From Hoplostethus atlanticus (taxonomy: Eukaryota; Chordata; Actinopteri; Trachichthyiformes; Trachichthyidae), in contig JAXDDX010000180.1 in NCBI GenBank assembly GCA_034670405.1, positions 353,501 through 417,500 on the forward strand: a DNA stretch of 64,000 bases, in the 5' to 3' direction. A program made the translations under genes and the position numbers. Positions 2,586-39,331 of the stretch are shown piece by piece (position 1 is the stretch's first letter; each line of letters opens with the position of its first letter). A model generated the notes under the pieces. The model was not told the DNA's origin and did no database searches. It saw only the letters and a list, made by a program, of their open reading frames with translations.

Positions 2586-3616
2586 CCTGCAGCGCCCCCT
2601 GCAGCACCGGAGGAGGAGGCGAACTCCCATTTTAACACTCCCTCTGTTCAACAACAACGACCACACCAATGACGACAACCGCGACGACAGCGACCATGGC
2701 GATGACGTCAGCAACAACGACGAAGAAAAAAAAAGCTAAAAAACTGAAAAAAATAAATCTTGCCTGTGATAAAATATTTTAGAGAAAAAATATATAAAGG
2801 GGGAGAAATCAGGACGTTGATGATGAATTTACATTTTATGCAAAAGGCCCTGCTGAACGGCGCCGGGAGGCTAGCACATGTATTCTTCATCATCCTTATC
2901 GTAATCATCATCATCATCATCTTCATCGCCACGACGACGGCGTTTAAAAAGTCGAGCGCTGAGAACTCCTAAGCTTTAAGCCATGGTAGAAACTTCACTT
3001 TTCATTTTGATGAATGCAAACGGCACTTTGGCTCCCTGCTTCCCCGTTGATCTGACCAATCAGAAATCAGAGTTTGTCATTGTGTCTGTCCTTTAGCTGC
3101 CACGTGTTTGTTCTGTTTGTTCCAACGTGGTCAAAGCGTCAGGGAGGTTTTGACACTGCCGATAAAGGTTTGGAGGGGAACTCCGGTTGGTAGTTCTGTC
3201 CAGACAGGATTAGTTTTACTGGAGGTGACCTGATTCACACCGGTGTAAATCAGTGATTCTAGTGGTAATTTGTGATTATTCCAGGGTTTACTCTCCGTGG
3301 GACAAATATTCCACTTCTGGTCCCGTCCAGATGGATGCAAGTTACCATTTAAAATATGAAAATAAAATGAAAAACTCCCAGTTCCCTCTTTGTGGAATCT
3401 GATGAGACACAATTGGTGGGTTTTGTGTTTTAACAGTTTTATCTGTTGCAGGCGGAAGGAAACATTGCATGATGTATTTCCAAAAGTGTAACGCCGCCCT
3501 CAGTAATTTTTTTGAATAATATTGTAAAAAAGTACTGAAATCACTGATGAGCATCGTGAAACATTATGGAGCAAATTTGATGCAGAAACAATTTAGTTTT
3601 TGGAGACAAATTTTGC
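2586..3616 (+). other. fgf12 3' untranslated region and flank
   Basis: After the stop, an AATAAA lies at about 2751 in an A-rich run, and others follow (about 3358). Short CAT/ATC trinucleotide runs lie near 2890-2925. No further coding exon is seen. Confidence 0.55.
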
Positions 3617-3839
3617 ACAGCAAACAAAATTTGCAGGCATCTCAAAAGTACAAATCTTGTCTTGTGAGTCTTGAAGATGCATTTGTCGATATGCGTGCAC
3701 GTGTGCATCTCAAGTTGGCACACAAAACACAAATCAAACCATTTCATATTTCTGCGTACGATGAGGAAAAAATCCACACGTGTATGTCACTTGTTACGCT
3801 TAAATTCAGTCTGATCTGAATTTAATATATTACTAACCA

Positions 3840-3872
<33 letters not shown>

Positions 3873-4093
3873 GCGGCGAGAGAAGAGGGAGGAGCCCAGC
3901 GCCGAGTCGATGACCTGGGGTTAACAAGTGACATACACGTGTGGATTTTTTCCTCATCGTACACAGAAATATAAAATGTTTTTTGTGTGCCAACTTGAGA
4001 TGCACACGTGCACGCATATCGACAAATGCATCTTCAAGACTCACAAGACAAGATTTGTACTTTTGAGATGCCTGCAATTTTTGTTTGCTGTGT
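3617..4093. repeat. Long inverted repeat with a 28S rRNA-derived spacer
   Basis: The left arm (about 3617-3796) and right arm (about 3922-4093) are imperfect reverse complements of one another. For example, AAGATGCATTTGTCGATATG on the left recurs reverse-complemented as CATATCGACAAATGCATCTT on the right. The spacer of about 125 bases contains a stretch matching the 5' part of vertebrate 28S rRNA. The arms do not look like rDNA. The arms create mirror-image open frames that are not genes. Confidence 0.85.
3816..3908 (+). pseudogene. 28S rRNA 5'-end fragment (rRNA-derived)
   Basis: Contains CTGAATTTAA, then GAGGAAAAGAAACTAACC, AGGATTCCCTCAGTAGCGGC and AGCCCAGCGCCGA. These are in the same order and spacing as the extreme 5' region of eukaryotic 28S rRNA, with a handful of substitutions. 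An 11-base inverted copy of its first bases (CTTAAATTCAG) sits just upstream at 3799-3809. It is too short to be functional rRNA. Confidence 0.85.
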
Positions 4094-7000
4094 AGACATT
4101 TCTTTTTCACATTTGTGACTTGGAAAAAACACGCGAGTTGTGTTTTGCTGTGCACTCGCCAAAGATAGTTTTGGCATTAAATTCACTCCATACACCATCA
4201 CCTACATCACCTACATACCTACGGGGAGGTGTGACACTAATGCTGTCTGAACAGTTCTAGTCCCACAGGGGGCGCTAGACTGGATTTGGACGAAACTGCC
4301 CTGTCCAGGATGCTAATGTTAAAAAGAAACTCGACACTGGAACTGGAAATGACATGATATGATCTGGTGTACATGAGATATGATATGATAGCTGGTGTTC
4401 TTGCTCAGTATATAAATGTGTTGAAAAATGACACAGCATGTGTTGAAGATGTCCAAAATGTACACAACATGTCCTTTTTTAACACGTTTGTATGTTTTGT
4501 TCAGGTACGACGGACGCTGTTATGTCAGTGTGTTTTTTGAAACGCTGGGCTGGGATTGGTCCGTTTTCAACTCACGGTACCTTTCAACACGTTAGTAGCA
4601 TGTTAACAGTGTGTTGAAATACACGTAGCTTTCGTCCCAGATGTGTTGAAAACTGACACGTCCTTCTAGTTCACAGGTCAATCACCTGAAGGGGGCGGGT
4701 TTTAGATAGCAATCTGACCAATGGCAATGCAGTCGCAGGCTGGCCCCACAGCTCAGTATTACAGCAGTCTCTCCAACAACTGTTAATTAAAGGTTTATTA
4801 ATTATTGATTATTGACCTTTTGGGCCTGAATTTACAAAGCAGCAGAAAAGTCAAATTTTTAACTCTTTTTCTTCCACTTTAAGGTCAGATTTGGGAACGC
4901 TGGGTTAAAAAAGGCTTTGAATGTGGCAATTTATTAATAATAATTGACTTTTAAACCAAAAACAGATGAACTCTTTGTGAGACAGGTATTGTGATTTTAA
5001 AGGTTTGGGTTGTTTAGCCAGATGCCGGTAACTTGGGGTTAACAAACCTACCGGATGTTGTTGTTGTCCAGCCACAAAGCAGACAGACAGGACAACAGAC
5101 AGAGAAACAGACAGGAGGGATACAGATCGTCTTGTCTGTTCCAGCGATGGACAGACAGACTGATATGTCAGATATAAAGGACAATAATATATATCATAAT
5201 CTAGCCAGAGCATCTCATGTACAAGTGCTGTGACGAGGCTTCAGACTTCCTTCTCTCATCTGTTCATGTATGAGACTCATGGTGCGTTCAAGACACCTGG
5301 GATCTGTGGAATGCGCTGATAAGGTGTTGGCTGATGGGGGGGGTGGCGATGGCGATAGTAACATATCCGACAACACTGCCCTGCTTCGGTTCGACTTTGA
5401 ATTTCCTCCTCTGTGGGAAAAAGCACTGCCCTGTAAACCGTCTTAACTCCGCCTTCACCAACACCTCACCTTTAAAACGAACATCCAGCTGTTGGGTGAA
5501 AACCTTGTATCTTCAAAACGTCAAGAAGTAGGAGAACAGCCTTATTTTAACATTGACAGAACTGTGTCGGCGGAGTCATCCTGGGTTTCCTGCGGTCATG
5601 AAGCTCAGGATCACAGGAACCATGAAAAAACAACTGAATTGGAGTTATGAGGTTTTCCCCCGACAGCAGTAATGTGGTTTTCAATACAGCTATGGGAGAG
5701 AAAACACACCTGGAGATACTTTTCAATACAACGTGGTAATAGTAGCAAACATGTCAACATGAAGTGTACCTGAACACATCTTAACCCACCAGACACTCTG
5801 TGATGCAGTTCCAGTATTTTAGAGTTTCCTGAGTGAGGTGAACAGACGCTCTCGCCCCTGAGCTACGGTGGCCTGTAGTAGACACAAAGCCAGAAATCTC
5901 AGCAGCTGGCCAAGTAATCATTGAATCATTGGTATTGATCAGTAATCCTATCAACCCCCCAATATATTATGGTCTGTTTGAGCTATGGAGTATAAACATG
6001 ACTTATTGCCCCTTTAAGTACATGCTTCCCCAGTACAACCACGGTCTCTACTGGTTCTACTGGGAGCTGACCATCACAACCACAGTCTCTACTGGTTCCA
6101 CTGGGAGCTGACCAGTCCAGTGTTTTTAATGGTTGTGTTGAACAGTAACAGAGGTGTGTGTTGTACCCATGGAGGTGTTGAAAGCGACTCGTTCTGCAGA
6201 GTGAGGTTGGACCCTCAGCCAGGAAGCTGCACTGCCCTCTCTCTTCTACCTTCCTTCTTTTTCCCGTATCGTCGCCGGTTCCTCTCAGCGTTACCGACTG
6301 GGTTTCCCAAAAGCATCTTGATTAAAGCTCCGTTCACACAGAACTGGTACGATGTGCTGAAATTGTGCAATTAATGAATTAACATCCAATGAAGTTCACT
6401 GAACTCTAAACCCTTCGTCTCTAGAGGAGGAAGGTAGAAATCACGCACCAAAACCAAGAGTGTTATCATTTGGGTAGATATTCTCAGGGACCTCAGGAGG
6501 TTGTTTGAAAATTAATTAAATGATTCTAACAGGATTAAAATCACTGAAGATTTCTGCTGTTATTACAAATCACCAGGTCATATCAGTCCCTTGTCAATAG
6601 CAGCTTAATCTAACCTTCAGCTGGTTGGTTGGTGATGTAACTCTGTATGTTGCATGTTGAGGATTTTAACCAACGATCCAGACGGCGTATATGTATCACT
6701 CCAGTCAGAGGCTGGAAAGCAAAGTGTTTGTAACATCATCAACCAGATTACCAGATTACCAGATTACCAGAGATTCACTTCATCTACAGATGGTTTTGGG
6801 AAACACAGTTGTCGCCCATCAGTCACACCGGTCCTGCCGTCAGTTCCCTCTGCGTTCAGTCGACACAGGAAGTGGATTTACTTTAACAATAAAATACAAT
6901 AATTTTTTCAGAGAAAAAAGTGAGATAAAAACCCAAGGGCCTTCTGGGACGTTTCACCTGACAGCAAATTGAGAATGCATGCTCTGTTGTAAAACCATTG

Positions 7001-11821: not shown

Positions 11822-11893
11822 GGCTCGTTGGTCTAGGGGTATGATTCTCGCTTTGGGTGCGAGAGGTCCCGGGTTCAAATCCCAGACGAGCCC
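11822..11893 (+). tRNA. tRNA-Pro (anticodon TGG)
   Basis: A 72-base cloverleaf. The acceptor stem GGCTCGT pairs perfectly with ACGAGCC, followed by discriminator C. The anticodon stem CTCGC/GCGAG encloses the loop TTTGGGT, so the anticodon is TGG, reading the proline codon CCA. The A-box-like TGGTCTAGGGG and B-box GGTTCAAATCC are present. The T stem reads CCGGG against CCCAG, leaving one C-A mismatch. No intron and no encoded CCA. Likely a real Pol III gene, though the mismatch leaves some doubt about function. Confidence 0.93.
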
Positions 11894-17268: not shown

Positions 17269-20200
17269 TCAGTGATGAAATGATCAGTCAGACAGAAATT
17301 ATCCATGAAGATTCAATTCTGTTGAGACAGAAACACAATCAGCTGTTCAGAGCTGAGGACCTCCAACATGGCCGCCAGAGGGGGGTTAGGTCACATGAAA
17401 CCTTCTGTATCTTCAGTGATATTCAATAGTGAGTTTTACTTCCTGGCCGAGTTCCCGGTGTGTGAATGTGTGGAAGTGTTTGAATGTGAAGCCGTGAGTC
17501 AGTCAAGCTTGTAAAGGTTAAACAGAAAGATAAAGATCAGCGTGAAGGAAACTGCAGTCATCAAACTCTCTTGGTGGTTTCGAAGTTCTAGCTAGACCTC
17601 TGTCATGGTGGCCAGCAGGACCGTCTCTCTCAACAAACACCATTAACACATCTGGTTAGCACACTAGCTAACGTATCTAGTAGCAGCTAGCGTTAGCAGT
17701 GGCTAGTAGTCCCATGTTAACAGTAACTAAACTAGCCTGCTGGCTAGTTAGCTAGCTACCAGTTAGTTCAGGTTAACTAGCTGACTCTTCTCCAGCTCCA
17801 ACTCAGAGTGTTTTGGAGTAGAGACTAGGGCTAAAGACAAGACAGTTTACTGAGTCACAGTAACCTACATTTGGAGACAAATCTACCTGATCACACGGAT
17901 CACTTTTACTGAGAACGTTACTGGATGATCTACAGACACACCACAACAACCTGGTTGAAACCTCCATGGGTTGAAAGCACCCTGCTGGGCTTCTGGCCCC
18001 GCCCCAGTCTGTGATGTGATCTGTGATGTCATAGCAGAGGTTTTAAGGTAGTAATCGACCCAACTAGAGATGGGACGATCCATCGATGCAAGGACTCCTT
18101 TCTCTGGAGAAATAAAGTTAAAAGGTTAAAGAGAATCAGATACCCTGTACCACTATGTGGACTTTCCTCTAACATGCATCAGAGGTTGTGAACAGCTCCC
18201 AGGTCTGTTCTACCTTCTGGTTCCTCAGTGAAACTCTTGGAAATGGAAAATTCTTCCTGTTCTCATGCAACTCTGCAAAAGCAGGGTTAATTAAAAACCT
18301 CAGCGCTCAGCCCCGCGGGACGGGGGAGGGATCGTTCTGGAGAGGAGGGTCATTTGTTACACTCTGTCTATGTGTGTGTGTGTGTGTTGGGGGAGGACAG
18401 TGGGGGGGCGTAGAGGGAGGAGAGGATTGGTTTGGGGGGTGGATGGATGGAGGTGAAGGTACGTGGGTGGATAAGATGAGATATGAGACTTTAATGATGG
18501 TGAGAAAACAGCAAGCAGTAATAGGATACAGCAATAGAGACCAGAATAGAAACACACAACATTTAAATAGAATACAACACTAGAATGTAGTAATTAGAAA
18601 TGTATGAATGGAAAGTCTTAGTTCAGGAGAGACTCAGTTTGAGATCAAGCTTTTATTGGACAATGAAAATAAACCGAATGAGCTCTTGAGGTGTAATGAG
18701 AACCAAACTGGTGGATATATAAGACCAATCAGGCTAGCTAACTAGCTAACCTAGATAGCTGCAGGCTAGTATGGCTAGTTTGAAGTAGGAAGCTCAGATA
18801 GGCTAACTAGCTAACCTAGATAACTTAGTATGACTACATTGTATTGTATTGTTAGCAGCAGAGCGCTAGGCTACACGATGTTAGCTAGCTCCTCTCTGAC
18901 CTCACTGGGCTTCAGTCTGACCTTACTGTTGGTTTTAGGCTCCGCCCACTGAGGTTTAACTCAACCAATCAGATTATGTCTCCCTCAGAGAAATGATTGT
19001 TGAACTAAAACTACAATATGCAAGAAAATGAGAGGGGTTGGAGGGGTGGATGGAGTGATGGAATGAATGGAGGGATGATGGAGAGATGGATGGATGATAG
19101 AGGGGTAAAGGGAAGTGGAGGGATGATAGAGGGGTAAAGGGAGGTGGAGGGATGATAGAGGGGTACAAGGAGGTGGAGGGATAGAGGGGTGAAGGGAGGT
19201 GGAGGGATGATAGAGGGGTGGAGGGAGGTGGAGGGATGATAGAGGAGTAAAGGGAGGTGGAGGGATGATAGAGGGGTAAAGGGAGGTGGAGGGATGATAG
19301 AGGGGTGAAGGGAGGTGGAGGGATGATAGAGGGGTGAAGGGAGGTGGAGGGGTAAAGGGAGGTGGAGGGATGATAGAGGGGTGGAGGGAGGTGGAGGGAT
19401 GATAGAGGGGTGGAGGGAGGTGGAGGGATGATAGAGGAGTAAAGGGAGGTGGAGGGATGATAGAGGGGTGGAGGGAGGTGGAGGGATGATAGAGGAGTAA
19501 AGGGAGGTGGAGGGATGATAGAGGAGTAAAGGGAGGTGGAGGGATGATAGAGGGGTGGAGGGAGGTGGAGGGATGATAGAGGGGTGGAGGGAGGTGGAGG
19601 GATGATAGAGGGGTAAAGGGAGGTGGAGGGATGATAGAGGGGTGGAGGGAGGTGGAGGGATGATAGAGGAGTAAAGGGAGGTGGAGGGATGATAGAGGAG
19701 TAAAGGGAGGTGGAGGGATGATATAGGGGTGGAGGGAGGTGGAGGGATGATAGAGGGGTGGAGGGATGATAGAGGGGTGGAGGGAGGTGGAGGGATGATA
19801 GAGGGGTAAAGGGAGGTGGAGGGATGATAGAGGGGTGGAGGGAGGTGGAGGGATGATAGAGGGGTAAAGGGAGGTGGAGGGATGATAGAGGGGTGGAGGG
19901 AGGTGGAGGGATGATAGAGGGGTGGAGGGAGGTGGAGGGATGATAGAGGAGTAAAGGGAGGTGGAGGGATGATAGAGGAGTAAAGGGAGGTGGAGGGATG
20001 ATAGAGGGGTGGAGGGAGGTGGAGGGATGATAGAGGAGTAAAGGGAGGTGGAGGGATGATAGAGGGGTGGAGGGAGGTGGAGGGATGATAGAGGAGTAAA
20101 GGGAGGTGGAGGGATGATAGAGGAGTAAAGGGAGGTGGAGGGATGATAGAGGAGTAAAGGGAGGTGGAGGGATGATAGAGGAGTAAAGGGAGGTGGAGGG

Positions 20201-21676
20201 ATGATAGAGGGGTGAAGGGAGGTGGAGGGATGATAGAGGAGTAAAGGGAGGTGGAGGGATGATAGAGGGGTGGAGGGAGGTGGAGGGATGATAGAGGGGT
20301 GCAGGGAGGTGGAGGGATGATAGAGGAGTAAAGGAGGTGGAGGGATGATAGAGGAGTAAAGGGAGGTGGAGGGATGATAGAGGGGTGGAGGGAGGTGGAG
20401 GGATGATAGAGGAGTAAAGGGAGATGGAGGGATGATAGAGGGGTGGAGGGAGGTGGAGGGATGATAGAGGAGTAAAGGGAGATGGAGGGATGTTGGAGGA
20501 GGTTTTAATAGAAAGACTAATACTCTCGCCGGGAAAATCTGACAGGTCAATTACTAACACACTGCCGCACAGCCAGGACGACCACTGGAGCACACACGTG
20601 CACACGCACACGCACACGCACACGCACACGCACATGCACACCACACACACACACACACACACACACCACTATGTACAGAAGGTGTAGAGAGCCTCCATTA
20701 ATCCCTGCAGGGTTCAGACTCCTGAGGCTTCATCACAGCATCTCCTCCTGCAGTCTGCATGGTGTCAGACTGAGGCTCAGGAACAGGCCTCAGGTCAGTT
20801 TCTAGAGGGGTTTTCGATGGCTGATGCATGACCCATGTTGGATCGAAGCGTTGTTGGCTGACAATTTGGTAAATTATTTATCTTTTAAATTTTTCATAAC
20901 CGAAGTAAAATCATTACTTTGTTTTTACTTAATACGATGAACATAAAAACTGAAACCAGTCGTGTGATTGGCTGAGAGACTGAAGCATCACTCTGCTGTT
21001 GCATGTTAGCATGTTAGCTAGAGAGAGCAGTGGGTTCTCAAAGTGGGCTCCATGGACCTGCAAGGATCTTTGAGGGGGTTCGGTGGGTTCTTGAGGGAGT
21101 TCTAGGGCTCTTACAAGAGGGACCATGGTGGTCTAGATTCTGTTTCCACCCTGACAGAAAGTTGTCATTTTTTTGGGTTTGTTTTGGCTTGAAAACATTC
21201 AGTTTTAAAGACACTGACTATCGGCAAAAGATCACTATTGCTGAAATAGCTGAATCATCTGTATTGGCATCATTCTTCTTCACATGTTTTGACCCCTGTG
21301 GTGGTTGGAGAGCATTTCTACAAAACAAATCTAGTCTTGCCAAACCCAAATCAGCCGAATCCTCAGTCCAGGTTGTGTCCTTTCAGAGCTGAAGGCAGTA
21401 GAAAAGGTAGAAACAGTAGAAACGGTGCAGCCAGTCTGCAGTGACGTTTTCAACCTGGCTGATATCTGCCTCCTCATCTGAAGGGATCAATTATGAAGCT
21501 AATTTCTAAATGAAACGGTTCCTGTAATGAAACGAGGGCGTGATAACGTCGTACCTTAACGAGCAGAGTGTAATTGGTTTCCTGCCTCCAGTAACGACGA
21601 CGCCCACTAAGCTCTGTTTGATTCACAGATAAAAGCTGTAGATCAATGGAGGAGAAACACTCTGGCACAGCGCCTG

Positions 21677-21710
<34 letters not shown>

Positions 21711-24437
21711 GTGTGTGCGTGTGTGTGTGCGTGTGCGTGTGTGTGAGTTAAACCTCCATCACAGCTCCATTGCCTTCCATCAGCCTGACCATCCATCTCT
21801 CCCTTCACTCCTTCAGTCCAAAAGGGATTTACTGGAATGAAAACAAATAAACAAATAAAAGATGATATTTTCTGTCAGTCTGTATTTATTTCATATGTTT
21901 TAATATATTTTCATTTTCAAACGATACCAATTTCTCCCCTGACAGTAGCCGAGATAGACCAGAATGCAATGCAGTAGCCAAGATAGACCAGAATGCAATG
22001 CAGTAGCCAGGATAGACCAGAATGCAATGCAGTAGCCAAGATAGACCAGAACGCAATTCATGGCGGGGCGGGGCGGGGCTCTGGAGCAGCAGAGAGTCAT
22101 TGATTTATTATCTGATGATCAGTTTCTGATTCCAAAGTGACTTTTAATGATACTGAATTGATTTTCTCCACCCCTCCTCTCCCTCTCATCTCTCTTCTCA
22201 TCTTCCACCCCTCCTCTCCCTCTCATCTCTCTTTTCATCTTCCACCCCTCCTCTCCCTCTCATCTCTCTTCTCATCTTCCACCCCTCCTCTCCCTCTCAT
22301 CTCTCTTTTCATCTTCCACCCCTCCTCTTCCTCTCATCTCTCTTCTCATCTTCCACCCCTCCTCTCCCTCTCATCTCTCTTCTCATCTTCCACCCCTCCT
22401 CTTCCTCTCATCTCTCTCTCTTCTCATCTTCCACCCCTCCTCTTCCTCTCATCTCTCTGTTCTCATCTTCCACCCCTCCTCTCCCTCTCATCTCTCTTCT
22501 CATCTTCCACCCCTCCTCTCCCTCTCATCTCTCTTCTCATCTTCCACCCCTCCTCTTCCTCTCATCTCTCTTCTCATCTTCCACCCCTCCTCTTCCTCTC
22601 ATCTCTCTCTCTTCTCATCTTCCACCCCTCCTCTTCCTCTCATCTCTCTTCTCATCTTCCACCCCTCCTCTTCCTCTCATCTCTCTGTCTCATCTTCCAC
22701 CCCTCCTCTCCCTCTCATCTCTCTTCTCATCTTCCACCCCTCCTCTCCCTCTCATCTCTCTTCTCATCTTCCACCCCTCCTCTTCCTCTCATCTCTCTTC
22801 TCATCTTCCACCCCTCCTCTTCCTCTCATCTCTCTCTCTTCTCATCTTCCACCCCTCCTCTTCCTCTCATCTCTCTTCTCATCTTCCACCCCTCCTCTTC
22901 CTCTCATCTCTCTGTTCTCATCTTCCACCCCTCCTCTCCCTCTCATCTCTCTTCTCATCTTCCACCCCTCCTCTCCCTCTCATCTCTCTTCTCATCTTCC
23001 ACCCCTCCTCTTCCTCTCATCTCTCTTTTCATCTTCCACCCCTCCTCTTCCTCTCATCTCTCTTCTCATCTTCCACCCCTCCTCTCCCTCTCATCTCTCT
23101 TCTCATCTTCCACCCCTCCTCTCCCTCTCATCTCTCTTCTCATCTTCCACCCCTCCTCTCCCTCTCATCTCTCTTCTCATCTTCCACCCCTCCTCTTCCT
23201 CTCATCTCTCTGTTCTCATCTTCCACCCCTCCTCTTCCTCTCATCTCTCTTCTCATCTTCCACCCCTCCTCTTCCTCTCATCTCTCTTCTCATCTTCCAC
23301 CCCTCCTCTTCCTCTCATCTCTCTGTTCTCATCTTCCACCCCTCCTCTTCCTCTCATCTCTCTTTTCATCTTCCACCCCTCCTCTTCCTCTCATCTCTCT
23401 CTTTTCATCTTCCACCCCTCCTCTTCCTCTCATCTCTCTGTTCTCATCTTCCACCCCTCCTCTTTCCTCTCATCTCTCTCTTTTCCTCTCTCTCCTTCCC
23501 TCCTTCTCTCCCTCTTTCAGAGCCTATGTGTTATGACTGGGGGGAGTCGGGTGAGGGAGCGGTTGTAGTTTTAGAGGGGGAGGCCAGTTGGCTTTCCTGT
23601 CCTCTTTTCTCTAATCCCTCCGTCTACAACTACACCTCCGCCCTGAGCGCCGGACTCAACCTCTTCTGGTACCACTTTCCTATTGGTCATGACCTGGAGC
23701 AGCCAATCGAATACAGGTATGCTGATGGGAACACTATTCTGTGTTTCACAAGAAATAAGAAAAATCTGAAATACTTAATTTTTATTATTTTTATTTTTAT
23801 TTTTTAAATACTATATAGTATATAGTATTTTTTTTACTTCGCCACCAAATTGCCCTCACGACCCCCTGGGGGGCCCCGGCCAGGTTGAGATGATAGTAGC
23901 GAACTGAAGTCTTTCGGTTAACAGACGGGATCCTCTAGATTTAGTTACTGAATAATGAACTAGAGGTAATGATTTCCTCTCCATTGGATGTATAGAGTTT
24001 GGAGTCGAGCCTCCCGAGGACTTCAGAGTCGTTCTAATGTAATTCTAATTGAATCGTTTCTGATTTATGTTTATTGTGAGTTTGATCGGACTTGTTCTGC
24101 AGCCAGCGGCTCAGTAAGGAGAGAGAGAGACTGTGGCTGCAACCAGCGACCGCGGAAGACACCGGACAGTACATCTGTATGCTACGGTAAGGAAGGAAGG
24201 ACGGACGGATGGACGGATGGACGGATGGATGGACGGACGGATGGACGGACGGACGGATGGACGGACGGATGGACGGACGGACGGATGGACGGACGGATGG
24301 ATGGATGGACGGATAGATGGATGGATGGATGGATGGACGGCTGGACAGATGGACGGATTGATGGACGGATGGATGACGGATAGATAGATGGATGGATGGA
24401 TGGATGGATGGATGAATGGATGGACGGATAGATGGAT

Positions 24438-27926: not shown

Positions 27927-30900
27927 TGCTACTACTACTACTACTAATAATCTGGGTTCAAAGCGGGTCACTCGAGTCGCTCCATGCCGCTAGACCTAAC
28001 TCTCTCTCCTCCGTCCTGATACTCCTGGACCTGTCTGCAGCGTTTGACACGGTGAACCACCAGATCCTCCTCTCCACCCTTGAAGGGATGGGTGTCTCAG
28101 GCTCTGCACTCTCCATGTTTGCATCCTACCTGACGGATCGCTCCTACCAGGTGACATTGAGAGGGTCTGTGTCCAAACCACGCAGGCTGACTACGGGGTC
28201 CCGCAAGGTTCGGTTCTGGGTCCTCTTCTTTTTTCCCTCTACACAACATCTCTTGGTTCTGTTATCCACTCCCACGACTTTTCCTACCACTGCTATGCCG
28301 ATGACACCCAGCTGATCTTGTCATTTCCCCCCTCTGACACACAAGTGGAGGCTCGCATTGCTGCATGCCTGGCTGACATCTCGGAGTGGATGTCGATGCG
28401 CCACCTGAAGCTCAACCTGGACAAGACTGAGCTGGTGTTCCTCCCGGGGAAGGGCTGTCCGCACCGAGACCTGGCCATCACCATTGATAATGTTGTGGTG
28501 ACGTCAACTCGGACTGCGAGGAATCTGGGTGTGACCCTGGACGACCAACTGTCGTTCTCGGCAAACATCGCATCAGTGACACGCTCCTGCAGATTCCTCC
28601 TCTACAACATCAGGAGGATTCGCCCCTTCCTCACTGACAAGGTAGTGCAGGTGCTCATCCAGGCTCTTGTCATCTCCCGCCTGGACTACTGCAACTCCCT
28701 CCTTGCTGGTGCCCCGGCGTCTGCCATCAGACCTCTGGAGCTTGTTCAGAAAGCTGCAGCTCGTCTGGTGTTCAACCGCCCCAAGTTCTCCCACACAACT
28801 ACCCTTCTCTGTTCTCTACACTGGCTCCCTGTAGCAGCTCATCCAGTTCAAGACCCTGGTGCTAGCCTATAGGGCAGTGAAAGGAACAGCTCCTTCTTAC
28901 CTCCAGGCTATGGTCAAGCCTTACACCCCCGCCCGACCACTTCGCTCTGCTGCCTCGAGGCGACTGGTTGCCCCGTCGCTCAGAGGGCCCTGCGGCCGAT
29001 CTACACGGTCACGGCTCTTCTCTGTCCTGGCCCCGCAGTGGTGGAATGAACTCAGGACAGCAGAGTCGCTGCCCATCTTTCGCCGCCGCTGAAAACCCAC
29101 CTCTTCAGGAATCACTACCCTGACTCTTCCTCTTAGCCTTGCCTATTTGTCGTCAATTATGTGTCTGAGCTCTTGTTTATTGGCTCTTGTTCATTTGATA
29201 CACTTATTTGTCTCATTTGTTTAAGATATAGTAGGTTGCTAACTTATTGCACTTTTACCTTAACACTAGTTATGCTCTTAGTTGCTTGTTTAGGAAGGAA
29301 ATGCACCTACGATTTCTGGTGACTAGTAGTTTTCTTGCCTACCTATGTTGAATGCACTTATTGTAAGTCGCTTTGGATAAAAGCGTCTGCTAAATGCCAA
29401 TAATGTAAATGTAATGTAATGTACTAATACTACTATAACTATTACTACTACTATTACTAATACTACTACTACTACTTCTACTATTACTACTACTGCTACT
29501 ACTACTACTACTACTGCTACTAATACTACTATTACTAGTAGTACATCATTTCTTTGTAGATGAATTATGTCCGATTTCAGAATTTTATCTCAAAACCTGT
29601 CTGTCTGCCTGTCTGTCTGTAGAAGTGTAAGGAGTATCCGTTCTGGAACAGCGACAGGGAGGTGAAGGGGGCGGGGCTTGTGGTCCACGTGATGCTGCAG
29701 CCCTACCAGGGTTACTACTACTGCACCGTCCAGTACCAGAGGAGAGGACAACCGCTGCAGTACACCAGGATGATCAACGTCACCGCCGTCTGTAAGACAC
29801 AACTAGTAATACTACTAATACTAATGATGCTCCTAATACTAGTAATACTACTAATATTAGACGGCTGCAGTACACCATGATATACCTAATACCACTACTA
29901 CGACTACTACTACTACTACCACCACTACTACGACTACTACTACTATTACCACTACCACTATTACTACTACTAATACTACCACTAATATCCAGGATATTTA
30001 CTTGAGTATCTATAATGTGTGTATTTATTTCAGATCCCACCAAAAATTTGCCCAAAGATCCCATCATCCTCCATCCGACCAAGAACCAAACCTTCACCGT
30101 CAAGCAGGGTACGTTACCGGGTACCGGGTCGGTTATCGGGTAGGACAACTGGTGAACCTCTCTCCACTGGTTAACACGTTTCTTGTCAGGGCGGAGAGGC
30201 GTGTGAACCAGATCAGTAGGAAGGGATAATGTAATAACTGCCAGGTAATGGAGTAATTGGTCTAAATGTAGTAAATGGGATATTTACAGATTAACAGATC
30301 AATATTGCTACCTTGGTGTAATTACTGTGAACCAATGAGACCACCATTGAGACTACATTTCCCATAAGCCCCGTTGCTTCCTGTCCCCCCCTCCCCCTCC
30401 CTGGCGTCTTTGTCTTTCCTGAAGAGGATCAACATGTTGAAGTGATTTCTCCATCTTCCTTTCTCTCCTTCCTCCATCTGCCGTCTCCAGAAACTCTTTA
30501 TCTTTAGCTCCGTTAGCGCTGGAAGAACAGCGCCCTCTTCCTGTTTGGTGCCGTAAAGCAATCCAGCAGATTTCCCTCCAGATCGACCCGGTGGACACAA
30601 TGTAGAATGAGAGTAGAGGCTGGTAGAGGCTGACAGGCTGGTAGAGGCTGGTAGAGGCTGGTAGAGGCTGGTAGAGGCTGACAGGCTGGTAGAGGCTGGT
30701 AGAGGCTGGTAGAGGCTGACAGGCTGGTAGAGGCTGGTAGAGGCTGGTAGAGGCTGACAGGCTGCTAGAGGTGGAGTTATACTGATGACTCTACACTAAT
30801 GTGGTTTATTGATGGTGAAAGGAAACATAAAGCACATTTTACAGGCTTTACTACATGTCTGACTCATTTAAAGGGCATTTTATTACATGTTGACAAGTTT

Positions 30901-33900: not shown

Positions 33901-36115
33901 AATAGAGGATCACAAGAGTGGTCTTCTTCACTGGTGGGCGGCTGTGGGGGTAGAGCGGGTCGTCCGCTAATCAGAAGATCGGCGGTTCGATCCCAGGCTC
34001 CTCCAGTCCGCATGTCGAAGTGTCCCTGGGCAAGACACTGAACCCCAAATTGCTCCCAAAGCTGCGCCTTCGGTGTGTGAATGTGTATGAATGGTTAGAT
34101 TCCCCTGATGTGCAGGTTGGCACCTTACATGGTAGCGCCCTGCCATCTGTGTGTGAATGTGTGTGAATGGGGTGAATGTGAATGTAGTGTAAAGCGCTTT
34201 GAGTGGTCGGAAAAGACTAGAAAAGCGCTATATAAGTACAGTCCATTTACCATTTACTGTGGTGTTCCTCACTGTGGTGTTCTTCACTGTGGTGTTCCTC
34301 ACTGTGGTGTTCCTCACTGCTCTTCCCAGAGATCACCTGTCAATCAAACAGTGTGTCCAGTACTGACGTGACGTCTTTCTCCTTGGATTTTCTGTTGATG
34401 GAGTTTGAGTTCCTGTAGGTGGCGCTCTTTTCTTTGTCTGTTCAACCATGGTGGTTATCGCTGCTCATGCTAACTACCCAGTTCTTCTTCTGTTGAAATG
34501 TAAAACGCATCACTTCCTGTCTCCAGAGGGTTTCTCCCAGGAAAGACCTACCTGACACCGGGTGTTGAGAACAGAAGATGGAGAAGCTTCATGATGGTTG
34601 AGGTTGATGATGTTGAGGTCCAGAGATCAGAGAGAGGACAGAGATGTAGAGGAACATGTTGAAGATTCCTGAACCTCCGGTGTGTCTTGTCCTCCTCCAG
34701 TGTCGATGCCGTCGGTGGAGCTGGGTTGTGGTCTCGGTGTGACTCTGGTCCTGATGCTGGTTCTGTTCGTGGTTTATCACGTCTTCTGGCTGGAGCTGCT
34801 GCTGCTCTACCGGTCCTGGTTCGGCACCGACGAACGCCACACAGGTAGGCGATGGCTACCAGTCCAGGAGTCCAGGAGTCCTTCCTGTCTGTCAGCTGAT
34901 CAATGAACGCCAAAATGGCCAAAACAAATCTAACAAATCTTGTCCTCCTGTCTTCCTGTCTTCCTGTCTTCCTGTCCTCCTGTCTTCCTGTCCTCCTGTC
35001 TTCCTGTCTCCATCCAGACGATAAGCAGTACGACGTCTACATCTCGTACGCTAGGAACAGCGAGGAGGAGCAGTTCGTTCTGAGCACGCTCAGAAGAGTC
35101 CTGGAGAACGACCTGGGATACACCGTCTGTATCTTTGACAGAGACAGTCTGCCTGGAGGGAGTGAGTACCCCGGATACTAGTACTACAACTAGTACTGTT
35201 ACTAGTACTACTACTGCTAGTGAAACTACTACTACTACTACTGCTACTATTACTACTACTACTGCTACTATTACTACTATTACTACTACAACTACTACTA
35301 CTAGTAAAACTACTACTTCTACTACTACTACTACTATTACTATTACTACTACTACCACCACTATTACTTCTACTACTACTTCTACTTCTACTACTTGTAC
35401 TGCTGTTACTACTGGCAAAACCTCTACTACTACTACTACCACTTCTAGTAAAACTACTACTGCTGCTACTACTAGTAAAACTACTACTAGTGAGACTTCT
35501 ACTTCTACATCTACTACTACTACCCCTGCAGCTGTTGCTACTACTAGTACTGTAACAGGTAGGACATGAGTGAGACACCAACACACACCACCACCATCCC
35601 CATCACCCCTCCCTCCCTCCCTCCCTCCCTCCATTAACCCCTCCCTCTCTCCCCCTGCAGCCATCACAGATGAGACTCTGAGTTTCGTGGCTCGTAGCCG
35701 GCGGCTGCTGGTGGTCGTCAGCCCGGGCTACGCCTCCCAGGGCTCCCAGGCTCTGCTGGAGCTCAAGGCCGGCATCGACGGCATGGCGCTGGGCGGGCAC
35801 CTACGGGTGATCCTGATCCAGTACAAGCCGGTCCAGCGGCAGGGCTGGGTGAGGGAGCTGAGGAGGGCCCGGGTGGCCCTGGCGCTGGTCCGATGGCAGG
35901 GAGACAAGTCCAAAGAGCTGACGTCTCGCTTCTGGAAGAGGCTGAGGGTGGAGTTACCTGTTCAGAGGGAGGTGGGGGAGGGGAGGAGCAGGGAGGAGTT
36001 GGACCTGAAGAGGCTTCATAGTCAGAACAGCACCAGTTCCCAGACAGGTCTCATTACCAACACAGTGAAAGAACCACAGAAAGCAGGGCTGGTGTACAGT
36101 GCATCATACCTGTAA
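14315..36115 (+). CDS. il1rap: il1rap, interleukin-1 receptor accessory protein (12-exon membrane form)
   Basis: Co-receptor that pairs with IL-1R1, ST2 or IL-36R at the plasma membrane and brings a second TIR domain for MyD88 signalling (family knowledge). Coding join: 14315-14316, 16806-16891, 23521-23716, 24103-24186, 27497-27704, 29623-29791, 30034-30108, 32643-32769, 33270-33418, 34701-34844, 35018-35161, 35661-36115. This totals 1839 bases, 612 codons plus stop, with every phase matching. Layout: signal peptide about 1-24, Ig1 about 30-127, Ig2 to about 250, Ig3 to about 365, transmembrane about 371-395, TIR from about 417. Diagnostic blocks shared with human IL1RAP are [59 protein letters not shown] and TDETLSF. 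Introns hold megabase-style minisatellites but the exons are intact. Exon 11 can alternatively join 39332-40407. Confidence 0.93.
14929..15056. repeat. (CAGA)n/(GGCA)n tetranucleotide array
   Basis: CAGA units grade into GGCA units and back, in il1rap intron 1. A similar array lies at 15360-15455. Confidence 0.93.
15172..15262. repeat. ATCAGATCAC tandem array
   Basis: 5- and 10-base units (ATCAG/ATCAC/ATCAT) repeated about 17 times in il1rap intron 1. Confidence 0.9.
15360..15455. repeat. (CAGACAGG)n array
   Basis: A CAGA/CAGG tetranucleotide mixture, partner of the array at 14929. Confidence 0.9.
15623..15681. repeat. (AC)n microsatellite
   Basis: An AC tract with one CC interruption. Confidence 0.93.
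15899..16106. repeat. 88-bp tandem repeat, about 2.4 copies
   Basis: The blocks CAAGGCATTATGGGTAGAAG, GAACTGTGGTGGTT and GGATCCAACCAGCTACAGGA recur with a period of about 88 bases. Copies are over 95% identical by eye. Confidence 0.9.
16320..16370. repeat. Perfect 22-bp hairpin with CCAAT motifs
   Basis: Arms 16320-16341 (containing GATTGGTCAGTGTGAACC) and 16349-16370 are exact reverse complements around a 7-base loop. Each arm carries an ATTGG/CCAAT element. Confidence 0.9.
16428..16802. repeat. Cluster of (CT)n, (CTA)n and (TC)n microsatellites before il1rap exon 2
   Basis: (CT)n at about 16470-16518, (CTA)n at about 16605-16695 and (TC)n at about 16770-16802. The last serves as the pyrimidine tract of the exon 2 acceptor. 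Confidence 0.92.
16806..16891 (+). CDS. il1rap: il1rap exon 2 (signal peptide)
   Basis: Begins with the G of the split ATG, then [20 protein letters not shown], a classical hydrophobic signal core with a small-residue cleavage region, then VSQSSDQS. It ends in phase 1 before GTGGGT. Its acceptor pyrimidine tract is a (TC)n microsatellite. Confidence 0.85.
17012..17268. repeat. (AGT)n trinucleotide array
   Basis: About 85 AGT units with AGC interruptions at regular spacing. It makes poly-Ser and poly-Val frames on + and poly-Thr on -; none is a gene. It abuts copy B of repeat family 1. Confidence 0.95.
17268..17965. repeat. Interspersed repeat family 1, rearranged copy B
   Basis: The segment 17268-17420 (ATCAGTGATGAAATGATCAG to CATGGCCGCCAGAGG) is in the + orientation of copy A. 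The segment about 17640-17965 (TAGCTAGCTACCAGTTAGTT, CTACATTTGGAGAC and onward) is in the opposite orientation. One arm has therefore been inverted relative to copies A, C and D. Confidence 0.7.
17966..19035. other. il1rap intron 2, no gene seen
   Basis: Contains a short GT tract near 18370 and a duplicated unit of about 70 bases built on GCTAACTAGCTAACCTAGAT near 18735-18830. Nothing else is recognised. Confidence 0.6.
19040..20505. repeat. Large 29-bp purine-rich minisatellite
   Basis: About 50 tandem units of GAGGGATGATAGAGGGGT plus an AAAGGGAGGTG-type end (the middle varies GGAGGG/AAAGGG). The + strand is almost all purine plus T. Because 29 is not a multiple of 3, the - strand stays open in two frames over 520-560 codons (Pro/Ser/Leu repeats), which is an artefact. 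Confidence 0.95.
20595..20670. repeat. (CA)n microsatellite with CG variants
   Basis: CACACG units pass into pure CA units. Confidence 0.92.
20700..21675. other. il1rap intron 2, unique-looking DNA
   Basis: No repeats, exons or RNA genes are recognised. Confidence 0.5.
21677..21746. repeat. (GT)n microsatellite with GC interruptions
   Basis: About 35 GT/GC units. Confidence 0.93.
21944..22060. repeat. 29-bp minisatellite, AGATAGACCAGAATGCAATG family, locus 1
   Basis: About four units of AGTAGCCAAGATAGACCAGA plus ATGCAATGC. The same unit forms a second, longer array at 31426-31618 in another il1rap intron. Confidence 0.9.
22165..23480. repeat. Large 37-bp pyrimidine-rich minisatellite
   Basis: About 35 units of TTCTCATCTTCCACCCCTCC plus TCTCCCTCTCATCTCTC with small variants. 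The + strand is nearly all pyrimidine. It runs to within 45 bases of the exon 3 acceptor. An open frame crosses it into true exon 3, but only the part after 23520 is coding. Confidence 0.95.
23521..23716 (+). CDS. il1rap: il1rap exon 3 (Ig1, first part)
   Basis: Completes the split Glu codon and reads [11 protein letters not shown], then [20 protein letters not shown] and [12 protein letters not shown], ending EPIEY-like QPIEY in phase 2 before GTATGC. It aligns with the human SERCDDWG to LIWYW segment. NYT is a candidate N-glycosylation site. The acceptor sits at the end of a 1.3-kb pyrimidine minisatellite. Confidence 0.95.
23717..24102 (+). other. il1rap intron 3
   Basis: A short intron of about 386 bases with an A/T-rich start. 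No other feature. Confidence 0.8.
24103..24186 (+). CDS. il1rap: il1rap exon 4 (Ig1, second part)
   Basis: Reads [20 protein letters not shown], then TGQYICMLR, the F/G-strand region with the Ig1 cysteine. It matches human ENRISKEKDVLWF to YTCMLR. Acceptor ttctgcag, donor GTAAGG. Confidence 0.95.
24187..24645. repeat. (GGAY)n tetranucleotide array
   Basis: GGAC/GGAT units over about 450 bases, beginning directly after the exon 4 donor. They give His-Pro-Ser-Ile repeats on the - strand that are not coding. Confidence 0.95.
25028..25932. repeat. 20-bp purine-rich minisatellite
   Basis: Units of AGAGGGTACAGAGGGATGAT, with TATAG and length variants, over about 900 bases, interrupted near 25462-25500 by a short unique/GT segment. 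Long open frames on the - strand are artefacts. Confidence 0.95.
26103..26155. repeat. (CA)n microsatellite
   Basis: About 26 CA units. Confidence 0.95.
26156..27496 (+). other. il1rap intron 4, distal part
   Basis: Holds a degenerate (TAGTAT)n array (about 26462-26645) and an (ATT)n tract (about 27198-27224). No other gene seen. Confidence 0.7.
27497..27704 (+). CDS. il1rap: il1rap exon 5 (Ig1-Ig2 link and start of Ig2)
   Basis: Completes the Arg codon, then [46 protein letters not shown] and PSVTWYH, ending in phase 0 before GTGAGA. It corresponds to human NTTYCSKVAFPLEV to ITWYM. The acceptor TTTCCTAG has a weak pyrimidine tract compared with the other exons. Confidence 0.93.
27737..27950. 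repeat. (CTA)n-type array, left of the LINE
   Basis: Mixed CTA/ATACTA units; the continuation lies at 29425-29545, beyond the LINE. Confidence 0.92.
27953..29424 (+). mobile_element. 5'-truncated L2-type LINE
   Basis: Reverse transcriptase remnants in three frames: [12 protein letters not shown] at about 28030, [13 protein letters not shown] at about 28200, CYADDTQL at about 28291 with the catalytic YADD, then [26 protein letters not shown] and the C-terminal [14 protein letters not shown] region. The 3' end has TAAGTCGCTTTGGATAAAAG, CGTCTGCTAAATG and a short TAATG-type tail, characteristic of fish L2. It starts inside the RT domain, and at least three frameshifts plus a premature TGA make it dead. 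It is oriented with il1rap, within intron 5. Confidence 0.92.
27995..29092 (+). pseudogene. L2 reverse transcriptase fragment, frameshifted
   Basis: The frame breaks near 28190 (just before the YGVPQG motif), near 28830 (two-base loss in the LHWLPVAA segment) and near 29090 (RRR followed by TGA). Endonuclease and N-terminal parts are missing. Confidence 0.88.
29425..29545. repeat. (CTA)n array, right of the LINE
   Basis: CTA/CTG/ATACTA units like those at 27737-27950. Confidence 0.92.
29623..29791 (+). CDS. il1rap: il1rap exon 6 (Ig2, second part)
   Basis: Reads [20 protein letters not shown], then [20 protein letters not shown] and [10 protein letters not shown]. It contains the GYYYC cysteine motif of the Ig2 F strand. 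It ends with one base of a split Tyr codon before GTAAG. Acceptor tgtctgtag. Confidence 0.95.
29800..29990. repeat. (CTA)n-type array in il1rap intron 6
   Basis: ACTAAT, CTACGA and CCACTA triplets shortly after the exon 6 donor, including an imperfect copy of exon 6's last bases (GGCTGCAGTACACCA at about 29862). Confidence 0.9.
30034..30108 (+). CDS. il1rap: il1rap exon 7 (Ig2-Ig3 linker)
   Basis: A short 75-base exon: split Tyr, then [20 protein letters not shown] and TVKQ, ending in phase 1 before GTACGT. It corresponds to the human GSPKNAVPPVIHSP region. NQT is a candidate glycosylation site. Confidence 0.9.
30343..30812 (+). repeat. Repeat family 2, copy 1 (carries a minisatellite)
   Basis: Matches 43917-44742 on the opposite strand from end to end: ATTTCCCATAAGCCCCGTTG, GTCTTTGTCTTTCCTGAAGA, GCGCCCTCTTCCTGTTTGG, a GGTAGAGGCT tandem block (30616-30765), then ACTGATGACTCTACA and TTTATTGATGGTGAA. 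No coding capacity is recognised. Confidence 0.88.
30616..30765. repeat. (GGTAGAGGCT)n tandem block
   Basis: 10-base units with periodic GACAGGCTGG interruptions. The same block is about three times longer in the second copy. Confidence 0.92.
30813..31425. other. il1rap intron 7, no feature seen
   Basis: Unique-looking DNA; nothing recognised. Confidence 0.5.
31426..31618. repeat. 29-bp minisatellite, locus 2 of the AGATAGACCAGAATGCAATG family
   Basis: About seven units, with GAGATAGACCAGAATGCAAT and CAGTAGCC blocks, as at 21944-22060. Confidence 0.9.
32278..32374. repeat. Perfect 36-bp inverted repeat with 25-base spacer
   Basis: Left arm 32278-32313 and right arm 32339-32374 are exact reverse complements (core AGCAGGTGATTTCACTGGTT). 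A short tandem (CCCCTGGTCTACAGCC, three times) follows at about 32399-32450. Probably a remnant of an inverted-repeat mobile element. Confidence 0.92.
32643..32769 (+). CDS. il1rap: il1rap exon 8 (Ig3, first part)
   Basis: Reads [17 protein letters not shown], then [20 protein letters not shown], ending FSKTN in phase 2 before GTAGAA. The WWTIDG block is shared with human IL1RAP. Confidence 0.94.
32966..33115 (+). mobile_element. tRNA-derived SINE fragment
   Basis: Contains the Pol III B-box-like GCCAGTTCGAGTCCC and a downstream GGTGGGGTAACTGGTGAGTA segment. Truncated; in il1rap intron 8. Confidence 0.6.
33270..33418 (+). CDS. il1rap: il1rap exon 9 (Ig3, second part)
   Basis: Reads [20 protein letters not shown], then [19 protein letters not shown] and [11 protein letters not shown], with the YNCSV F-strand cysteine and an NCS glycosylation site. 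Phase 1 at the donor GTGAGC. Confidence 0.95.
33936..34254 (+). mobile_element. tRNA-derived SINE, near full length
   Basis: The A-box-like GGGGGTAGAGCGGG and B-box GCGGTTCGATCCC lie about 45 bases apart. A body follows (GTCCCTGGGCAAGACACTGA, repeated GTGTGTGAATG) and a tail with AAAGCGCTTTGAGTGGTCGG and AGCGCTATATAAGTACAGTC. The structure is typical of teleost tRNA SINEs. In il1rap intron 9. Confidence 0.82.
34255..34320. repeat. 15-bp tandem repeat at the SINE 3' end
   Basis: ACTGTGGTGTTCCTC-type units, about four or five copies, directly after the SINE tail. Confidence 0.8.
34701..34844 (+). CDS. il1rap: il1rap exon 10 (transmembrane)
   Basis: Reads [20 protein letters not shown], then [20 protein letters not shown] and GTDERHT. 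The single hydrophobic helix followed by YHVFWLE and the FGTDE turn matches human IL1RAP closely. Phase 1 at GTAGGC. Confidence 0.96.
35018..35161 (+). CDS. il1rap: il1rap exon 11 (TIR domain, boxes 1 and 2)
   Basis: Reads [20 protein letters not shown], then [20 protein letters not shown] and DSLPGG. It contains TIR box 1 (YDVYISYA) and box 2 with the BB loop (RDSLPGG). It ends with a single base (phase 1) at GTGAGT and can therefore join either terminal exon. Confidence 0.96.
35175..35565. repeat. (CTA)n-type array in il1rap intron 11
   Basis: CTACTA, CTAGTA and CTTCTA triplets fill nearly all of the 499-base intron between exon 11 and exon 12a. Confidence 0.94.
35661..36115 (+). CDS. il1rap: il1rap terminal exon 12a (canonical TIR C-terminal half)
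   Basis: Reads [20 protein letters not shown], then [34 protein letters not shown] and the box 3 motif [12 protein letters not shown], matching human IL1RAP. A tail of about 45 residues ([12 protein letters not shown] and onward) is longer than the human end. Stop TAA at 36113-36115. A copy of repeat family 1 begins immediately after the stop. Confidence 0.95.
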
Positions 36116-36697: not shown

Positions 36698-39331
36698 GTT
36701 CTGATAGATTAGAGATAGAAAGGCAGAGAGAAAGATATTAATACTCAATTAATACTATATTCCCTTGGCAACATAGGTTTATTCGTCTCATGCCATTAAA
36801 GCAGATTGGAATTGAACTGTATTGAAGAGAGAGAGAGGGAAAAATGGTGCTGAAGCAACCAGGGGTGCTGCCTTAAATGAAATTGCATCGAGGGAAGATG
36901 AACAACTCTGACTCAGTGAAAAAACAGTCCAAGCTTTAACAGTTCATCATATTGAAAACAGGACTGATATTCACCAGGTAAAACTACAACAGGGAACGAG
37001 CTGGAACAAATGTCCTGGTGTTCATGAGCAGAGGATACAGGACCAGTCTGGGTTTCCATTTCCCTCCAGTACTTAATCTGAAGAAGGTTCATTTCACAAC
37101 ATCATGCTATTAATATGATGAAGTATTAGAACTTGGACAGGTTTGTCACCTCGTCCTCCTTCTATGTCATTTAATTTAAGGTAACAGCTTTTCCTCTGGT
37201 TGCTGCAGCACTATTTCTTCCACCGTCTAAAGAGAGAGAGGAAGTGAGAATATTGACGATGGATCAGAAATGGTTGTGGGGTTTTCAGTCCATAGCGTCT
37301 CTCTCCAACAGACACAATAAAGATAAACACTTAAAATAGAAGCAGAGACTGCAACACAGAGCAGCTTTAACACAACAACAACAGCATCAGAGGCAGAATG
37401 GAGGAAAGACGTACCACTTCCTGTCTGGTCCTCTATCACAGCATCATCACCACCAACCACGTGTCCTTGTCATGTTGCCATTACAGCATATTTTCAAACC
37501 AGTAAGTGTTAAGTTGTTTTAATGTCACCATTGCCGCCACTACAGTATTTTCTACCTGTCAGTGTTTCTTAATCATGGTTACATCCAGTATCAACATGAA
37601 GCCTGATTGTAATGGGACTGATCAGATCCCTTCAGATGAACCCGAGACACCGTGACGCACTGGCATTCACCTCCAAGAGTAAAATACATTTAGTTTAAAG
37701 ACGTCTTAAAGTGGAACTGACGTGCACTAGAAACAGGAAGTAGTTCATTTTAACCATGACCAGAACCTCAACCTGACTGGTTTAGTTACCTAACCTCAAC
37801 CATTAGCTAACCAAGTCCAGTTCTTGCTGTTGGTGAAGGAACATTATTCCACAACATGTAATCTGCATTTCCAGGCTCGTTTTTTGTGTTTATTTTGTTC
37901 TGCCTGTTCATAGCTGAGTTCACAACAAGCCAGAATACTGTCTGTCTGTCTGTCTGTCTGTTGAAAACTGCAGATTACACATTACAAGCTGCACTACAGC
38001 CGGGACAGGCCCACTACCACATGACCACAGATAGGAACCATGAAGAGGAAACACTGACCCGTTTATCTGATCGTTGCTTTTCACTCGTCATGATGGAAAT
38101 TATTCTGCACTTTTTCTATTGTAATTTCACAACATTTTACATTTACGCAAACATGAATATTCGTTCTTTTTTATAAAAAAAAAAATGTATTTTGATATAT
38201 GATTGTTTTTTTCAACATTTTGTTTTCATTATTCATTCTGATGGGAGAATGCAATTGGAAATGCACTTTCTTATGTTCTTAATTTTCTGTCACAAAAATG
38301 TATTTCATATTTTTTTAAATAAATGAGTTTCATTTCATGTCATAATTATCATTCATTTCAGTGTGTGGCTCATTTCATATCCCCTGCCTACACACACACA
38401 CACACACACACTCATTTGAGATTCAAATTTCACAAAATGTCACAAAATCTTCAGTATTTTTCAGTTCCTCATACTCATTCAGTCATTCAGTCTACACCAT
38501 ATAACATATCGAATCACAGGATCTAATTGGTCCAATCAGTGACCAATCCAATAATTCCAATCAATTGGTTGCTATGGTAACCTTTGTGGTAACCTGGGAG
38601 CTAGTTAGTGATTTTTCTTGTTTTGTCTTGTTTATTCTTATGTATGTTCACTACTTGGAAGAAAGCTTTTCACACCTGGACACAAATAAAAACAAAAGAC
38701 TGATGGATGTAGTTCTGCTGATACTTCAGCTTTATCAGGTTTCTCCTGCATCCTCTCCTCTATTAAACCTAAACCAGAAGTGGTTAGAGAGAGAAGAGCT
38801 TTAGAAGATCAGGAATTCCCACTGGTCATGGAATTTCTGGAATATCAGGGAATTTTGAGGTGTATTCCAGACAGGAAGTCAGGGAATATCAGGGAATTTT
38901 ACCAATGGGACACTTTAAAGGAATATACCACAATGTATTTTACACATTCATTACATTAGAAGCTGGTTTCCCACGCCGACTGTTCACCCCTTTAGTAAAA
39001 CAAGGAAGGAATAGTCTGTGGAGGTCATGGAAGTGATCCAACGTAGTTCCAAAAAGTCCTGGGTAAGTCATGGGATTTAACACCGAGGCTGGGAACCCTG
39101 TAGGGTAATATTGATGATGTACCAGGTTTCTGAAGCTTGCTCTCCTCCATCAGAGCTGTCAGAAGGTCTCCTGCTGGTCTTCATCTTGATATAATGCTGT
39201 TGGTGTTTTAGTTGTGTTTCTGACCTAGCTGAAGCCATCGTGTGTGATGATGCTACTGGTCCTCTTTAAACATAATATTGATGATGTATGTTGTTGTCGG
39301 GTCACTAAGCTTCCTCGTCCTCCTCTCCCAG
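36698..39331 (+). other. Intron between alternative il1rap last exons, or short-isoform 3' flank
   Basis: AATAAA signals occur at about 37315 and 38319, candidates for exon 12a polyadenylation. A short (CTGT)n at about 37938 and (AC)n at about 38388-38410. No further exons recognised. Confidence 0.55.

Follow-up and report, generated by a model that had tools for sequence, protein, structure and literature searches.

A stretch of 477 bases in the Hoplostethus atlanticus DNA (3617-4093 of the window, by which we mean the whole analysed stretch of 64,000 nucleotides) was found to be a near-perfect long inverted repeat capable of forming a hairpin, and the alignments place two 5′ ends of 28S rRNA head to head at the tip of this hairpin. 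The structure is real and unusual, and is probably a single fold-back relic with 28S rRNA at its tip. The origin that we favour, tentatively and with somewhat less than even confidence, is that fold-back (snap-back) synthesis at the 5′ end of 28S rRNA produced the long inverted repeat, that the left half then suffered a deletion and that the arms were later homogenised or re-duplicated. We take the element to be a passive relic, and no function is known for it.

The arms were delimited by self-comparison and arm alignment at 3616-3796 (left arm, plus strand) and 3922-4092 (right arm, minus strand). In the self-comparison of the window for inverted pairs (blastn, word size 9, dust on), they were the sole pair longer than 40 bp with more than 75% identity and less than 3 kb apart. 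Alignment of arm against arm from 3617 yielded 167 matches, 3 mismatches and one indel of about 9-10 nt near 3727-3737, which makes the two inverted arms of about 175 bases claimed in the preliminary description real. Folding of 3617-4092 as RNA gave -316.1 kcal/mol versus a shuffle mean of -113.2 (z -36.6), and 0 of 100 shuffles were as good. Neither arm had a recognised Rfam match above the cut-offs, and no Pfam family was assigned to the open reading frame (ORF) spanning the right arm or to the other tested ORFs within 3 kb, the Pfam scan having been performed on 20 of the 73 ORFs listed. In the right flank (4093-4152) the outer arm end (TTTGCTGTG) is repeated about 60 nt farther out; by eye, each of the two copies of TTTGCTGTG, in the arm end and in the flank, is bracketed by a small inverted repeat, and the sequences of these brackets differ.

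The very stable predicted hairpin and the high identity of the arms would suit a functional long-hairpin RNA gene, a putative source of siRNA with arms kept alike by selection. However, any near-perfect inverted repeat folds likewise, and the Rfam matches to hairpin families and the like (MIR2646, snoR03 and mir-239) all remained below their gathering cut-offs, the best being MIR2646 with 103.8 bits compared with the 245 required, so that we consider such a gene very unlikely. Long reads and whole-genome amplification are also known to give rise to inverted duplicates, which would suit an assembly or sequencing artefact, for example a fold-back read. The two halves differ, though, by 3 substitutions, by the indel of about 10 nt and by a one-sided stretch of about 95 nt, which is not what a fold-back read would yield, and an artefactual origin is judged extremely improbable.

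Between the arms lies a long, truncated sense piece of 28S rRNA (3816-3908, plus strand, about nt 30-124, delimited by Rfam and alignments), and the 13 nt that separate it from the right arm (3909-3921, plus strand, read from the sequence) have no assigned match. The Rfam family LSU_rRNA_eukarya matched 3810-3890 on the plus strand at model positions 24-103 with 60.1 bits (E 1.3e-11; gathering score 50), and by this covariance-model score above the curated cut-off the loop qualifies as a eukaryotic 28S rRNA fragment. A longer match to the LSU model, its alignment being stretched over 3790-3815, reached 66.1 bits. When 3816-3908 was aligned with 28S sequences, 87 matches, 6 mismatches and a 1-nt gap were obtained with a provisional teleost-type sequence, 82 matches, 11 mismatches and a 1-nt gap with a likewise provisional human sequence, and 75 matches, 14 mismatches and 8 gap columns with a database sequence (contig L001), a eukaryotic 28S reference that is not vertebrate-like; none of 2000 shuffles reached the score of the last alignment. 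On the strength of the Rfam score and these alignments, the loop is taken to be the 5′ end of 28S rRNA (its first ~120 bases), in agreement with the earlier assignment to the extreme 5′ end.

About 70 nt of the 28S sequence in the loop are also ~84% identical to bacterial 23S rRNA, because this LSU segment is universally conserved. Matches in plasmids (20 of 61 records listed) and phages (16 of 16) covered about 10% of the query, and all records read lay in the conserved LSU part. Three 28S patterns searched in viral contigs had 0 matches each, and the single match of a 28S pattern in prokaryote contigs was L001 itself, which is eukaryotic rDNA filed under a cyanobacterial MAG. Positions 1-2500 of this contig, assigned to an uncultured Coleofasciculus MAG, carry eukaryotic 18S, 5.8S and 28S rDNA and represent a binning contaminant.

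The 28S sequence had been described as an insert forming the loop of the hairpin; its presence in the loop holds, but its confinement to the loop does not, since minus-strand 28S sequence is also present at 3798-3815. This short antisense piece makes up the hairpin tip (3797-3815, minus strand), where 3798-3809 corresponds to nt 41-30 and 3810-3815 to nt 17-12 of 28S rRNA, nt 18-29 are missing and base 3797 is unassigned. The minus strand of 3798-3819 agreed with nt 8-17 plus 30-41 of human 28S at 22 of 22 bases around the 12-nt gap (0/5000 shuffles), and 3798-3815 agreed with the database 28S sequence at 18 of 18 bases (0/2000 shuffles). For the human 5′ reference, nt 1-20 were taken from two papers (PMC12819141, PMC7153239) and the rest was provisional, nt 21-41 agreeing in layout with the database sequence. 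The inverted 11-mer at 3799-3809 pointed out in the preliminary description is present, but the inverted match to the 5′ end of 28S rRNA is longer than this, at 22 nt. A candidate sense-strand start of 28S rRNA at 3790-3815 was rejected, as its local alignment stayed at shuffle level (897/5000 with human 28S; 1038/2000 with the database sequence).

The 10-bp stem by itself accounts for much of the 22-nt match: 10 of the 22 matched antisense bases are the plain reverse complement of the sense copy. An exact 10-bp stem with a spacer of 3-12 nt arose in 11 of 20000 loop shuffles, and such stems occur at 4 separate places in the window, the tip included. The independent signal of the match consists of the 6-nt tip (nt 12-17) and the dinucleotide GC (nt 40-41), for which simple arithmetic gives chance probabilities of ~1 in 4096 and ~1 in 16, respectively; together they constitute a small but specific signal, both parts of which were noticed post hoc. 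The antisense copy retains this GC after TTTAA and the sense copy has lost it; the antisense copy was therefore not copied from the sense copy in its present form.

The joint between the two head-to-head pieces is no more than about 12 nt away from where mature 28S rRNA begins, a position marked by the ITS2-28S junction as given in PMC12819141, and no ITS2 sequence was recognised by eye at the joint. As the two 28S 5′ ends face each other, the 28S sequence would seem to be the innermost part of the palindrome and not an insert that landed in a loop.

Fold-back synthesis would start from a chimeric strand composed of ~125 nt from the 5′ end of 28S rRNA and then a body of ~180 nt, the strand having ended near 28S nt 8. 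Its terminal CTGA (complement of nt 8-11) could have paired with TCAG, the complement of nt 30-33 located six bases upstream, and then been extended. The extension would have copied the entire strand, giving a palindrome in which the two 28S 5′ ends face each other across a 6-nt tip, the complement of nt 12-17. Subsequently, ~95 nt would have been deleted from the left half, comprising most of the 28S sequence there together with the 13-nt filler, so that the long copy would be left on the right only. The arms would afterwards have been homogenised by gene conversion or duplicated afresh, and the unpaired 28S sequence would have drifted. As source strand we would propose a cDNA, in which 28S was joined to the body by template switching, rather than rDNA. 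The primate 28S/LINE-1 chimeras and the yeast fold-back priming compared below are precedents that speak for this origin.

The antisense 28S ends at nt 41 directly beside the left arm, and the sense 28S reaches nt ~124 and is followed by the 13 nt before the right arm. Nt 30-41 of the antisense piece are contiguous in 28S rRNA with nt 42-124, the stretch present on the right only, and the arms resume at the matching base on both sides (3796/3922), as expected from one left-side deletion. The simplest account, we infer from this layout, is that both halves once carried 28S nt ~8-124 and that one deletion of ~95 nt then occurred on the left. A one-gap alignment of the whole palindrome with free axis gave this one-deletion model no support, as the score of the real loop was reached by 47 of 100 shuffles, a control of little power because gap extension had been set very cheap.

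The divergence of the arms was compared with that of the 28S sequence. Drift of both arms to the extent seen in the 28S sequence of the loop would be expected to give about 22 mismatches between them, versus the 3 observed (Poisson 6e-7, with the provisional teleost-type 28S as reference); if the arm-arm comparison is conservatively taken as one lineage, the difference gives a Fisher p of 0.053 with the same provisional reference. Beyond the arms, an older outer inverted repeat, much more diverged than the arms, is possible at 3545-3634 (plus strand, overlapping the arm end) and 4133-4209 (minus strand), with a significance that depends on the framing of the shuffle tests. In the first test, 357/1000, 4/1000 and 6/1000 shuffles did as well for 60, 120 and 200 nt, respectively; in the second test 1/500 did so in a framing picked after the first test, and 7/500 and 46/500 in two wider framings, the last of which aligned another stretch. 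Outside the limits originally given, a weaker, diverged inverted repeat may thus extend the structure. The more diverged 28S sequence and the weak outer inverted repeat hint that the arms may have been homogenised or re-duplicated later; homogenisation is rated as likely only, because the 28S reference was provisional and the 28S sequence may have been diverged already at its capture.

If the outer inverted repeat is real, it points to an older palindrome, into the loop of which a 28S fragment, retro-inserted or used as a patch at a break, may have landed. The arms have no recognised Rfam match and the right-arm ORF belongs to no Pfam family, so the arms and the 28S sequence may have separate origins. 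This sequence of events is nevertheless unlikely in our view, given that the antisense 28S beside the left arm needs a second event and that this antisense piece has 28S letters missing from the sense copy.

Membership of the element in a mobile family is possible, and one form that it could take is a family of non-autonomous DNA transposons, fold-back or MITE-like, that picked up the 5′ end of 28S rRNA and were mobilised in trans via their terminal inverted repeats, with one copy here. The arms at 3616-3796 and 3922-4092 provide the terminal inverted repeats characteristic of MITEs and fold-back DNA transposons; they are long with sharp ends, a further outer inverted repeat may be present, and the arms are more alike than the loop is to 28S rRNA, a pattern that would fit a recent copy within an older family. 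A target-site duplication as expected at the repeat ends of a MITE, however, was not found at 3616/4092, where the longest exact word common to 3561-3616 and 4093-4150 was 6 nt and did not adjoin both ends. Nor was there a second copy in the window, in which blastn of 3600-4110 returned the element, its own arms and one chance match of 14 nt. Two arm patterns (24 nt and 23 nt) had 0 matches each in viral contigs, and one 22-nt arm pattern had 0 matches in prokaryote contigs, both being weak evidence because fish DNA is not expected there. Altogether, we regard a MITE-like family as somewhat unlikely.

Other repeats and genes were seen elsewhere in the window. A LINE copy comprises a reverse-transcriptase ORF (28084-28869, Pfam) upstream of a UnaL2 3′ element (29349-29403, Rfam), and kilobase-scale minisatellites are located at 19083-20499 (29-bp unit), 22167-23479 (37 bp) and 61468-62505 (34 bp). 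A lone tRNA-Pro (TGG) gene or pseudogene lies at 11822-11893. The ORF at 35570-36112 encodes a TIR domain (Pfam, 4.9e-13) and matched structures of the interleukin-1-receptor family (best 7.7e-16, accessory-like proteins), and the ORF at 39229-40404 has a TIR match below the Pfam cut-off. The LINE copy and the ORF at 35570-36112 fit an animal genome, probably that of a fish.

A dispersed retroelement family headed by the 28S 5′ end would be a further form of mobility: a 28S-headed RNA would be reverse-transcribed, the cDNA would snap back via its built-in TCAG/CTGA, the hairpin cDNA would integrate and spread, and hairpin-mediated conversion would keep the arms alike. We hold such a family to be distinctly unlikely. 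The locus bears no direct mark of retrotransposition, as no poly-A tail was seen by eye and the arm ends lack a duplication. The internal Pol III promoter of a SINE was likewise not found by simple box A and box B patterns in 3541-4215 on both strands, two patterns that a degenerate promoter could still escape. Of the two proposals made earlier, the creation of the junction by a fold-back or template switch is borne out in so far as the inverted piece matches the 28S 5′ end beyond the 11-mer, but the proposal of a composite mobile family gained no data in its favour, there being no arm-end duplication, no Pol III boxes by the two simple patterns and no second copy in the window.

The literature was searched for comparable structures. 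Among the titles and abstract openings of the matches listed, none dealt with a long hairpin tipped by a 28S segment, which does not prove absence, and a text search with words of 19-26 letters from fish 28S sequence gave no match. Should the fold-back reading be correct, the locus shows how a palindrome can be initiated at the 5′ end of an rRNA in vertebrate DNA, and the loss and homogenisation that its two halves then underwent can be traced. Copies with the same boundaries in other genomes would make it an rRNA-headed hairpin element, a kind not found described in the literature searched.

Among known systems, SINE28 is a 28S-derived SINE of mammals that was reportedly described by Longo et al. 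in 2015, and, like the present element, it combines a short piece of 28S origin, located outside rDNA, with other sequence. According to PMC8010984, SINE28 stems from the 3′ end of LSU rRNA, whereas the segment found here comes from the 5′ end (LSU model positions 24-103), lies within an inverted repeat and has no Pol III boxes by the two simple patterns; going by that description, the element at 3617-4093 is therefore not a SINE28 member. With the MITEs and fold-back DNA elements of fish, as defined in PMC7599744, it shares long inverted repeats and the lack of recognised coding capacity, but no target duplication was found at its arm ends and it is known here from one copy. Fragments of 28S rRNA joined to another sequence also characterise the primate 28S/LINE-1 chimeras made at retrotransposition, of which PMC13174262 reports 18 loci, often starting near nt 3636, and for which it gives template switching or RNA ligation as explanation. 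According to the same paper, 28S fragments do join other templates during retrotransposition; the primate chimeras, however, accompany LINE-1 and often start from nt 3636, in contrast to nt ~8-124, a body without an assigned match and an inverted structure here. Finally, in yeast, short inverted repeats prime fold-back synthesis that leads to a palindrome (PMC10622511); these inverted duplications are of chromosome scale and arise at double-strand breaks, whereas the present case is an element of 477 bp with 28S rRNA at its tip.
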